41,346 nt of DNA from a virus. Within the stretch, counting starts at the first letter, position 1. Each line of letters starts with the position of its first letter. The notes beneath the pieces were generated by a model, which had not been told where the DNA came from, did not search any database, and saw nothing but the letters and a program-made list of their open reading frames with translations. The DNA is taken from IMG/VR virus record IMGVR_UViG_3300042691_013257, positions 1 through 41,346 of that record; one strand, given 5' to 3'. The position numbers and the translations under genes are program-made. Below are positions 3,506-5,801 of this stretch, piece after piece.

Positions 3506-3741
3506 GCAAGATGACCCTCGAAGAAGCAATCACCGATGCGGCCCGAAAGGGCCGTGTCAGGATCACCGTCTGGCCCGCCTCGGAAGGCTACCAGGCCAAT
3601 CTGTCCAGCGACGGCGATGCCTGGCGTGTCGAGATGGGTCCAGACCCGCTGACCGCGCTGAAGAAGGCCCTTGGTCTGCTGCCGGGTGCTTCCGGCCCGC
3701 TGCGCAACTCACCGCCCGAAGAAGAGGACGTGTTCTCATGA
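3502..3741 (+). CDS. Hypothetical 79-aa protein with -EDVFS tail
   Basis: The start ATG overlaps the stop of the upstream membrane peptide. The middle of the protein has alternating hydrophobic residues (VRITVWPASEGYQANL, then WRVEMG) suggesting a small beta-sheet domain, followed by a helix (PLTALKKALGLL) and an acidic linker ending EEEDVFS. The last residues match the C-terminal tip of the methyltransferase encoded two genes downstream (TEDVFS). No family is recognised. It overlaps the next gene by 4 nt. Confidence 0.7.
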   Translation: MSKMTLEEAITDAARKGRVRITVWPASEGYQANLSSDGDAWRVEMGPDPLTALKKALGLLPGASGPLRNSPPEEEDVFS

Positions 3742-3911
3742 AACGCTATGACTACGAGTGGAGCCCGCATCACGGCGTCTACTACATCCTGGACCGGACG
3801 CGCGGCACGGATGTCTATCAGCCCTACCGCAAGGCACTGGCGAAGACGTCCAGCGCGGCCGACGCGGAACTGATCGTCGATGCGCTCAATGCTGCGGAGG
3901 TGTCGGTATGA
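3738..3911 (+). CDS. Hypothetical 57-aa protein
   Basis: A short gene with ATGA overlaps on both sides (3738 and 3908), which supports it despite its length. The product begins MKRYDYEWSPHHGVYYILD and continues with an Arg/Lys-rich stretch and an acidic amphipathic helix at the C-terminus. Tyr content is unusually high (7 of 57). No family is recognised; position within the operon suggests an early or middle accessory protein. Confidence 0.65.
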   Translation: MKRYDYEWSPHHGVYYILDRTRGTDVYQPYRKALAKTSSAADAELIVDALNAAEVSV

Positions 3912-4963
3912 GCAAGCCTCGCGCGTACTATTCGGAATGGGACCCATACGCGGCGCAATGGCTGCGCAATCTTATCAGCGCCGGCCATATAGCGCCGGGC
4001 GACGTGGACGAAAGGAGCATCGAAGATGTCCGACCAGACGACCTTCGCGGATACACCCAATGCCATTTCTTCGCCGGGATCGGCGGCTGGAGCCTCGCAG
4101 CAAGGCTCGCAGGATGGCCCGACGACAGGGAACTCTGGTCGGGCAGCGAACCCTGCCAGCCCTACAGCGTCGCGGGCAAGGGCCTCGGTGAAGCAGACGA
4201 ACGTTTCCTCCGACCGCACGTCCACCGCCTCGTCGCTGCACGACGCCCGGCTGTCTACGTGGGAGAACAGGTTGCGGCAGCGGCTGGCAAGAATTGGCTC
4301 GACCGAGTGCATTCTGACATGGAAAGCATCGGCTACACCTGCCGGTCTGTCGTTGTTCCGGCTTGTGCCGTCGATGCGCCCCATCGAAGAGATCGATTGT
4401 GGTTTGTGGCCGACCCCGACGAGCCTTGCGCCGGCGCGCAACGGGAGCAACGAAGCCGGGAACTCAGCCGGACTGGTGGCGATCCGGGAGCACGCGCTGG
4501 CGATGTGGCCTACCCCGACAGCATCGTCGGACAAGTCGATCAGAACGCCCGAAGGGGCGAGGACGGAAGTGGCTCGCGGCAAGTCGCCGGATCTAGCGGC
4601 GCACGTCATGGCGCTGTGGCCGACGCCAATGGCGCACGAGGCGAGGCTCGGCTATCAGAGGCGAATGGGCGACACGAAGGGCTCGCAGAAATCGCTGACA
4701 ACAGAAGCAACCGACGCGCTGGGGCTTGGGGAGAACATCACTGGCTCGCGGGAGCAGACGGAAAAGCCCGGCGCGTTGAACCCGGCATTCGTCTGCTGGC
4801 TCATGGGGTTCCCGCCCGAGTGGGAAAGCTGCGCGCCTACGGCAATGCCATCGTCCCGCAAGTCGCGGCCGAAGTCATCGGGGCCTACCTCGACGCCCTC
4901 GACGAGCGTTTTCGATTGACCGACGTGTCTCTTTTGTCTCCCACGGAGGACGTATTCTCATGA
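3908..4963 (+). CDS. C5 cytosine-specific DNA methyltransferase (Dcm-like)
   Basis: A 351-residue C5-methyltransferase that would transfer a methyl group from S-adenosylmethionine to cytosine in phage or host DNA. Motif I is HFFAGIGGWSLA (about residues 53-64); motif IV is PCQPYS with catalytic Cys83; motif VI is the EQV variant of ENV; motif VIII is RDRLWFVA; motif X is YGNAIVPQVAAEV with Asn313. The start ATG overlaps the previous stop and gives a short N-terminal extension. The region between motifs VIII and X is low-complexity (Ala, Gly, Arg) and is exactly where a second gene runs in another frame. The C-terminus is TEDVFS. Modification may protect phage DNA from host restriction. Confidence 0.9.
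   Translation: MSKPRAYYSEWDPYAAQWLRNLISAGHIAPGDVDERSIEDVRPDDLRGYTQCHFFAGIGGWSLAARLAGWPDDRELWSGSEPCQPYSVAGKGLGEADERFLRPHVHRLVAARRPAVYVGEQVAAAAGKNWLDRVHSDMESIGYTCRSVVVPACAVDAPHRRDRLWFVADPDEPCAGAQREQRSRELSRTGGDPGARAGDVAYPDSIVGQVDQNARRGEDGSGSRQVAGSSGARHGAVADANGARGEARLSEANGRHEGLAEIADNRSNRRAGAWGEHHWLAGADGKARRVEPGIRLLAHGVPARVGKLRAYGNAIVPQVAAEVIGAYLDALDERFRLTDVSLLSPTEDVFS
4026..4919 (+). CDS. Methyltransferase-overlapping protein in +1 frame
   Basis: A 297-residue frame lying wholly inside the cytosine methyltransferase gene. It begins at ATG 4026 with a strong ribosome-binding site (AAGGAG at 4012-4017, 8 nt spacing), which chance overlap would not supply. The product has recognisable content: ECILTWKASATPAG and SLFRLVPS around residues 94-115, repeated LWPTPT/MWPTPT blocks, and a C-terminal LNPAFVCWLMGFPPEWESCA followed by Ser/Arg-rich residues. 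I know this arrangement from phage proteins that accompany Dcm-like enzymes; some resemble the target-recognition end of C5 methyltransferases. It ends in Ser-Val-Phe-Asp. Its function is unknown; a methyltransferase partner or specificity protein is plausible. It should be annotated as a dual-coding gene. Confidence 0.72.
   Translation: MSDQTTFADTPNAISSPGSAAGASQQGSQDGPTTGNSGRAANPASPTASRARASVKQTNVSSDRTSTASSLHDARLSTWENRLRQRLARIGSTECILTWKASATPAGLSLFRLVPSMRPIEEIDCGLWPTPTSLAPARNGSNEAGNSAGLVAIREHALAMWPTPTASSDKSIRTPEGARTEVARGKSPDLAAHVMALWPTPMAHEARLGYQRRMGDTKGSQKSLTTEATDALGLGENITGSREQTEKPGALNPAFVCWLMGFPPEWESCAPTAMPSSRKSRPKSSGPTSTPSTSVFD
4926..4940 (+). promoter_or_regulatory. Dispersed 15-bp motif, copy 3
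   Basis: TGTCTCTTTTGTCTC, just after the stop of the internal frame and inside the last codons of the methyltransferase, 19 nt before ATG 4960. Confidence 0.6.
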
Positions 4964-5268
4964 CAAAAGTCCATGTCTCCGATCACGCGCTGGTGCGGTG
5001 GCTGGAGCGCGCACAAGACATCGACATGGAGGCGTGGCGGGCGAAGCTGGCCGAGATCGCGCAGCCCTACGCCGATCTCAAGGTCAAGCACGCCTTCGTC
5101 GGCGGGGTGTGGCTGGTCTTCCAGGACAACGTTCTGGTGACGGTCACGCCCGAGAAGCCGGTACGGGACGCCTACGTCAAGCACGACCGGCACAGCGTCA
5201 ACGGCACGGCGACGTGGCAAGGCGATCCGAGACACTGGAAACACAAGAAACGGAGGGGCGGCAAATGA
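4960..5268 (+). CDS. Hypothetical 102-aa phage protein
   Basis: Start ATG overlaps the methyltransferase stop by 4 nt and has GGAGG at 4945-4949 upstream. The product opens VSDHALVRWLERAQDIDMEAWRAKLAEIAQPY, a helical segment seen in small phage proteins I cannot name, followed by beta-rich HAFVGGVWLVFQDNVLVTVTP and a basic tail (HKKRRGGK). The alternation of helix then antiparallel strands is reminiscent of RelE/DUF4258-like folds, but I see no diagnostic residues, so no function is assigned. It overlaps the HNH endonuclease by 4 nt. Confidence 0.75.
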   Translation: MTKVHVSDHALVRWLERAQDIDMEAWRAKLAEIAQPYADLKVKHAFVGGVWLVFQDNVLVTVTPEKPVRDAYVKHDRHSVNGTATWQGDPRHWKHKKRRGGK

Positions 5269-5801
5269 GCGAGATCTGGAAAGCGGTGCCTGGCTTTGAG
5301 GGCAGCTACGAGGTTTCGAACATGGGCCGAGTTCGATCCGTGGATCGTTTCGTCGACCTGATCGGACGGTGGGGCAAGCCCGAAAAGCGTCGGTACAAGG
5401 GCCGGATCAGAAAGCCGTTCACAAGTCCGTGCAATAAGTATCTTATGGTTCTTTTGTGCGTGAACAGTCGGAAGACATCGAGGACAATTCACAGCCTAGT
5501 CCTAGAAGCTTTCGTCGGCCCTTGCCCGCCCGGTGAAGAGGGGCGGCACCGCAACTGCAAGCACCATGACAACCGGCTCGAAAATCTCACCTACGGCACC
5601 CGCAAGCAGAACCGCGAGGATAGTCGTCGCGAAGGTACGCTGGCCGTTGGCGAGCGCATCGCGCAGCACAAACTGACCGCGAATGAAGTGCTGAAAATCC
5701 GGTCAACGCCGGCTGACCATCAAACCCTTGCTGACATTTACGGCGTTAGCCGCTCGCAGATCCGCCGCATCAAACGCCGGGAGAATTGGTCTCATGTGTA
5801 A
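5265..5801 (+). CDS. NUMOD4-HNH homing endonuclease
   Basis: A 178-residue free-standing homing endonuclease. NUMOD4 DNA-binding motif is at residues 4-24 (IWKAVPGFEGSYEVSNMGRVRS). The HNH region runs from His76 (HSLVLEAFVG) to NRLENLTYGT, with RHRNCKHHDNR supplying the catalytic His and Asn. The C-terminal part (LADIYGVSRSQIRRIKRRENW) is a helix-turn-helix that would guide target choice. The start overlaps the upstream stop and the end overlaps the DNA polymerase start by 8 nt, so the element sits flush against the polymerase gene. Such genes spread by cutting homologous phage genomes lacking them. Confidence 0.88.
   Translation: MSEIWKAVPGFEGSYEVSNMGRVRSVDRFVDLIGRWGKPEKRRYKGRIRKPFTSPCNKYLMVLLCVNSRKTSRTIHSLVLEAFVGPCPPGEEGRHRNCKHHDNRLENLTYGTRKQNREDSRREGTLAVGERIAQHKLTANEVLKIRSTPADHQTLADIYGVSRSQIRRIKRRENWSHV

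Follow-up and report, generated by a model that had tools for sequence, protein, structure and literature searches.

A gene nested out of frame in a phage C5-cytosine methyltransferase gene, and its probable role as the recognition chain of the enzyme

The window, i.e., the whole analysed stretch of 41,346 nt of viral DNA (IMG/VR record IMGVR_UViG_3300042691_013257), carries a C5-cytosine methyltransferase gene (alpha) with a complete 297-codon gene nested inside it in the +1 frame. The nested ORF is real, and the data support both frames as coding and constrained. The nested protein is probably (probability about 0.8) the beta chain, responsible for DNA recognition, in a C5-methyltransferase of two chains whose genes occupy both frames of one DNA. 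We infer that the chains are initiated separately and form a complex, that the cassettes recognise DNA, and that the enzyme protects from restriction, as follows. Ribosomes starting at 3908 would produce alpha, with the AdoMet-binding and catalytic domain (motifs I–VIII) plus motif X, and with just a disordered linker in place of a target-recognition domain. Ribosomes starting at 4026, behind their own Shine-Dalgarno sequence, would produce beta, composed of a helix, a hairpin, WPTP cassettes, and a block resembling motif IX. Docked on alpha, beta would supply the missing recognition region, the cassettes would select DNA sites, and the enzyme would probably mark phage DNA against host restriction.

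The methyltransferase frame is open from 3758 to 4963, and the ATG behind GGAGG is most likely the start of alpha, giving a product of 351 aa. Motifs I, IV (PCQ), VI (ENV/GEQ), VIII (R.R), and X (GN..P) of C5-methyltransferases were all found in alpha, which matches Pfam PF00145 (E 7.8e-15) and PHROG_363 (E 3.9e-79). The first-pass annotation of this DNA had described the nested gene exactly as it is given in Table 1. The core motifs that it named, including PCQPYS and GNAIVP, were located in the alpha frame, all peptides that it quoted for the nested frame are present, and the AAGGAG that it saw before the nested start belongs to AAAGGAG. A short ORF (3739–3911) ends in ATGA and overlaps the alpha start at 3908; the ATGA common to both suggests translational coupling of alpha. 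Just downstream of the methyltransferase, an HNH endonuclease gene (5265–5801; PHROG_1492, 5e-47) sits between a small gene without known function and a DNA polymerase gene.

Table 1. Features of the alpha and nested genes in the window. M3/M1, ratio of substitutions at alpha codon position 3 to those at position 1.
Feature	Position	Strand	Basis and remarks
Alpha chain, C5-cytosine methyltransferase, 351 aa (most likely start)	3908..4963	+	Motifs I–VIII, unusual IX, and X in frame: HFFAGIGG (4064), PCQPYS (4151), GEQVA (4262), PHRRDRLWF (4379), YGNAIVPQ (4838)
Shine-Dalgarno of alpha, GGAGG	3896..3900	+	Sequence
Shine-Dalgarno of nested gene, AAAGGAG	4011..4017	+	Sequence; 8-nt spacer to ATG; AGG is read as Arg in alpha
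Nested gene (probable beta chain), 297 aa, ATG start	4026..4919	+	PHROG_1008, E 4.3e-29; open and homologous in all loci examined
Beta N-terminal leader, Ser/Thr/Ala rich, predicted disordered	4026..4220	+	M3/M1 2.9–4.2; pLDDT about 45–50
Beta helix and beta-hairpin, residues 75–117, RLSTWENRLRQRLARIGSTE / CILTWKASATPAGLSLFRLVPSM	4248..4376	+	pLDDT 73–91
Cassette 1, WPTPTSLAPARNG..., type 22	4407..4505	+	17 other modules with the same type, array positions 1–4
Cassette 2, WPTPTASSDKS..., type 23	4506..4616	+	5 other modules with the same type
Cassette 3, WPTPMAHEARLGYQRR..., type 60	4617..4727	+	12 other modules with the same type
Motif-IX-like block of beta, LNPAFVCWLMGFPPEW	4776..4823	+	Aligned with the actinophage EWMMGxPxGWVT block; M3/M1 0.62
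Alpha IX-like block and motif X, RRVEPGIRLLAHGVPARV...YGNAIVPQ	4769..4861	+	Sequence; M3/M1 4.5 at X

In a profile search, residues 4–274 of the nested protein were aligned with positions 9–286 (of 329) of PHROG_1008. The same family contains the nested proteins of phages K1ind2 (1e-64) and Tadhana (2e-74), the actinophage beta chains JangDynasty gp5 (4e-58), Peaches gp76 (2e-79), Float294 gp61, and Lilbooboo gp33, and also covers residues 196–388 of Rita gp76 (2e-61), a single-ORF C5-methyltransferase. The nested family and the set of actinophage C-terminal parts were aligned in hhalign with 97% probability (E 5e-11). In the single chains of Rita and Akhila, motifs I–VIII are followed by LLPTP cassettes, EWMMGWPAGWVT, and GNGVVPQ or GNGVCPQ, and the PTP cassettes thus occupy the place of target recognition, between VIII and IX. 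The catalytic chain of JangDynasty, Peaches, and Float294 ends just after VIII, and the remainder is an overlapping second ORF in the +1 frame. Furthermore, Gordonia phage gp61 has a cassette whose DNA has no open alpha frame, and this cassette shares 74% identity with a nested-frame cassette of locus L012 (34 aa, E 2e-12). Together, the PHROG_1008 match, the actinophage alignment, and the Gordonia cassette indicate that the nested protein is homologous to the part of C5-methyltransferases behind motif VIII. PHROG_1008, the family of the nested protein (that of alpha is PHROG_363), is labelled just "DNA methyltransferase", and the overlap, the cassettes, and the role are absent from its description. 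Neither Pfam nor NCBIfam has a credible model for the nested family, a sequence search of the PDB with the nested profile gave no credible match, and the family has no description in the literature searched, with most subscription journals outside its coverage.

A direct profile comparison of the nested family with three canonical C5-methyltransferases in hhalign reached 0.6% probability, the aligned block being motif IX. The position of the block in the fused relatives suggests that LNPAFVCWLMGFPPEW is a homologue of canonical motif IX. Alpha keeps an IX-like block of its own, and motif IX may therefore come from more than beta alone. The alpha frame may account for part of the hairpin similarity seen between distant groups. 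Of 44 fused loci of the actinophage type (L264, L302, L308, L169, and others), 29 also show the hairpin motif, often with the first PTP cassettes, in an open +1 frame within the catalytic part, and one of the 44 shows it in the +2 frame; cassettes can thus occupy both frames of one locus.

Among 92 loci examined for gene layout, 46 have alpha and beta fused in one frame, 34 partly overlapping, 5 nested, and 7 non-overlapping. Beta lies in the alpha+1 frame in all 34 partly overlapping loci and carries motif X in 33 of them; in all five fully nested pairs, motif X is in alpha and absent from beta. Tandem methyltransferase/nested pairs, two in one phage, were seen in L029 (=L090), L039, and L141. 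Pseudomonas phage Riah (L083) has both frames, with the nested match lacking an annotated gene. Among bacteria, the closest nested copy is that of Endobacterium cereale (L193), with 67% identity in its best-matching segment, and it points tentatively to a host in the Rhizobiaceae for the phage of the window.

The alpha model computed in AF2 has pLDDT of about 90 in the catalytic part and below 50 in residues 198–263, and its best Foldseek match is M.HhaI (2uz4). No structured target-recognition domain was found between VIII and IX of alpha, where the chain is of low complexity, has pLDDT <50, and shows nested-frame periodicity. The beta model is mostly of low confidence (mean pLDDT 57.6, pTM 0.26), being confident just at the helix-hairpin (about residues 71–116) and moderate around residues 250–270, and Foldseek found no fold match for it in the PDB. 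Alternatively, the nested protein could be expressed as a separate factor, e.g., a regulator or an anti-restriction protein, merely sharing the methyltransferase DNA. The largely disordered beta model and the lack of constraint on part of the nested protein would suit such a factor, but it seems improbable given the homology of the nested protein with motif-X-bearing beta chains of actinophages and with single-ORF C5-methyltransferases in their C-terminal half, and given that an alpha partner was present beside every nested homologue examined. The first-pass annotation, which gave no function, had seen in the nested protein a type accompanying Dcm enzymes; the protein is more than that, being itself homologous to the C-terminal half of C5-methyltransferases.

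The start signal bears on the route by which beta is made. The alpha Arg codon forming the core of the nested Shine-Dalgarno sequence is AGG in 31 of 112 homologues, vs. 7.5% for other Arg codons of the same genes (P about 1e-10). A +1 ribosomal slip inside alpha, instead of a start at 4026, would provide the recognition region in cis as an alpha-beta fusion, and the 46 single-frame fusions among the relatives are a precedent for such a product. This route is less likely again than a separate factor: a conserved and codon-biased Shine-Dalgarno sequence precedes the nested ATG, and a single slip would lose motif X, which in the nested type is in the alpha frame only. A beta chain initiated on its own is the preferred reading.

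To sample the family, 80 IMG/VR loci were fetched with the nested protein and 80 phage loci with the methyltransferase alone. In both sets, 80/80 loci carry a homologue of the nested ORF in the +1 frame, and 80/80 bacterial loci, which were fetched with the nested alignment, have this arrangement too. When synonymous codons of the window alpha ORF were permuted, the +1 frame was free of stops in 2% of trials, with 2.7 stops expected. In 74 of the 80 methyltransferase-fetched loci, stops were counted from motif I to motif X: the nested frame has 7, vs. 225 expected after synonymous permutation within each gene, and the third (+2) frame has 718. The nested frame lacks any stop in 69 of these 74 loci, most of the seven stops lie at the edges of the span or in a C-terminal insert, and the one in L119 looks like the sole true interruption.

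Substitutions by codon position were counted in 34 independent pairs of related loci, with motifs mapped by alignment. Alpha position 3 corresponds to nested position 2, and alpha position 1 to nested position 3. Upstream of the nested start and around motif I, M3/M1 is 2.9–4.2 as in an ordinary gene, and codon periodicity tracks the methyltransferase as far as motif VI. The ratio then drops to 1.45 and, across the 25 alpha codons preceding motif VIII, to 1.03; it is 0.68 directly after motif VIII, stays low at motif IX, and rises again at motif X. Between VIII and IX, alpha position 1 evolves at a rate of 0.258, vs. 0.156 and 0.150 at the other two positions; it is faster than position 3 in 33/33 informative pairs, and amino acid identity is higher in the nested protein than in alpha in 30/33 pairs. 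According to these rates, the nested frame owns VIII–IX, the stretch ahead of VIII is divided between the two frames, and motifs I and X and, for the most part, VIII belong to alpha. The third-position freedom of alpha is lost within the overlap. Constraint on the nested frame spans about residues 60–268, with little on the N-terminal ~60 residues and on the tail behind MGFPPEW; W258, L259, and G261 of beta are invariant in 80 homologues. The earlier proposal of dual coding is thus supported throughout, by the open frame in all homologous loci, the lost third-position freedom, and the enriched Shine-Dalgarno sequence, and its suggestion that the methyltransferase region between VIII and X yields to the second gene has direct support in the nested-frame periodicity there. 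Stop codons in the internal frame of homologous phages and unreduced synonymous variation had been named as observations that would speak against it; both were looked for, and the data are of the opposite kind. A nested ORF arising passively from GC-rich codons and from the conserved residues of the methyltransferase can practically be dismissed: GC is 64%, alpha forces some +1 peptide similarity (GMTRNG/GMMWNG opposite alpha GYDAQW/GYDVEW), and nested residues 1–60 behave as a by-product would, but the permutation and rate tests rule out that the frame is open by chance or through GC bias for residues ~60–268, and homologues are also encoded where just one frame is open.

In the nested protein, WPTP cassettes form an array that is followed by the motif-IX-like block. 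From 203 non-redundant proteins, 454 cassettes that open with WPTP or one of its variants were classified into 156 types, 50 of them recurrent, by complete-linkage clustering (single linkage had chained them into one large cluster). Common types occur at array positions 1 to 4 with 8–22 partner types each, and 10 type pairs were found in both orders. The type 60 cassette precedes SLAPARNG in L012, L023, and L183 and follows it in the window. Replaced patches are confined to VIII–IX in genes otherwise 93–98% identical. Such exchange, reordering, and patch replacement form the pattern to be expected of exchangeable recognition domains, and the location between VIII and IX suggests that the cassettes recognise DNA, each possibly its own site. 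It is conceivable, though held here with somewhat less than even confidence, that the entire specificity module of the enzyme is a plug-in array of shuffled WPTP cassettes on a separate chain, translated from the other frame of the catalytic gene, in which each cassette would have its own site, swaps would change the methylation pattern, and the catalytic frame would tolerate any sequence there as a disordered linker.

Dual coding over ~890 nt with selection switching frames inside one gene is rare. In this methyltransferase family it is ancient and occurs in 80/80 phage loci sampled. The claim that gene callers usually miss the nested gene holds in part: many annotations give one frame only, or both as "DNA methyltransferase", but K1ind2, Tadhana, and other records do annotate the nested gene, usually as a second "DNA methyltransferase". 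New here are the array of cassettes in an overlapped frame, the passing of selection from one frame to the other as measured by substitution rates, the occurrence across phages and prophages, and the connection with the fused and partly overlapping enzymes of actinophages. If the recognition role is true, the specificities predicted for many phage Dcm-like enzymes were looked for in the wrong frame, and alpha expressed alone would give an inactive or misread enzyme. With the cassette array, the correspondence of peptide modules to methylated sites would form a direct code that can be tested.

Several known enzymes resemble the pair in the window. The small chain of M.EcoHK31I (YGGCCR) is likewise encoded in a second frame within the gene of its large chain. 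Its large chain carries motifs I–VIII and X and its small chain motif IX (PMC3404938); compared by this described layout, alpha and beta in the window show the same motif split, with the beta IX block being weakly similar to canonical IX in direct profile comparison. However, the predicted target-recognition domain of M.EcoHK31I is on its large chain (PMC3404938), while the cassettes in the window are on the nested chain, and M.EcoHK31I belongs to a restriction-modification system, while the window gene is of a phage and without an evident nuclease partner. No restriction-enzyme partner was seen in the plasmid annotation of the matches, the sole place where partners were looked for. In M.AquI (CYCGRG), the catalytic part is split from a distal recognition part plus IX (PMC3404938). 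It is likewise an alpha/beta C5-methyltransferase with the catalytic part on one chain and recognition plus IX on the other, but its motif X is in the small chain, while that of the window is in the large one; the split pairs of actinophages are closer to M.AquI than the window is.

Streptococcus phages MM1 (L174:1752-2177) and P0093 (L177:1752-2171) have an ORF of ~140 codons nested +1 in a canonical C5-methyltransferase, annotated as "C5 methyltransferase beta subunit" or "DNA methyltransferase". These ORFs were set aside as relatives, since their alpha is complete and canonical and the +1 similarity can be forced by it. The HNH insertion that lies out of frame in mycobacteriophage ShiLan (PMC11855218) is a different phenomenon.

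The window family also resembles multispecific enzymes in having exchangeable modules between VIII and IX, a position that suggests DNA recognition. In the C5-methyltransferases of Bacillus subtilis phages SPR, phi3T, and SPbeta, the recognition region consists of exchangeable modules of ~40 residues. These phage enzymes are built of one chain in one frame and without WPTP cassettes, and the SPbeta-type enzyme (L262) was aligned solely as a canonical C5-methyltransferase. Exchangeable modules in a phage enzyme are what the two have in common, with those of the window family probably placed on a second chain.
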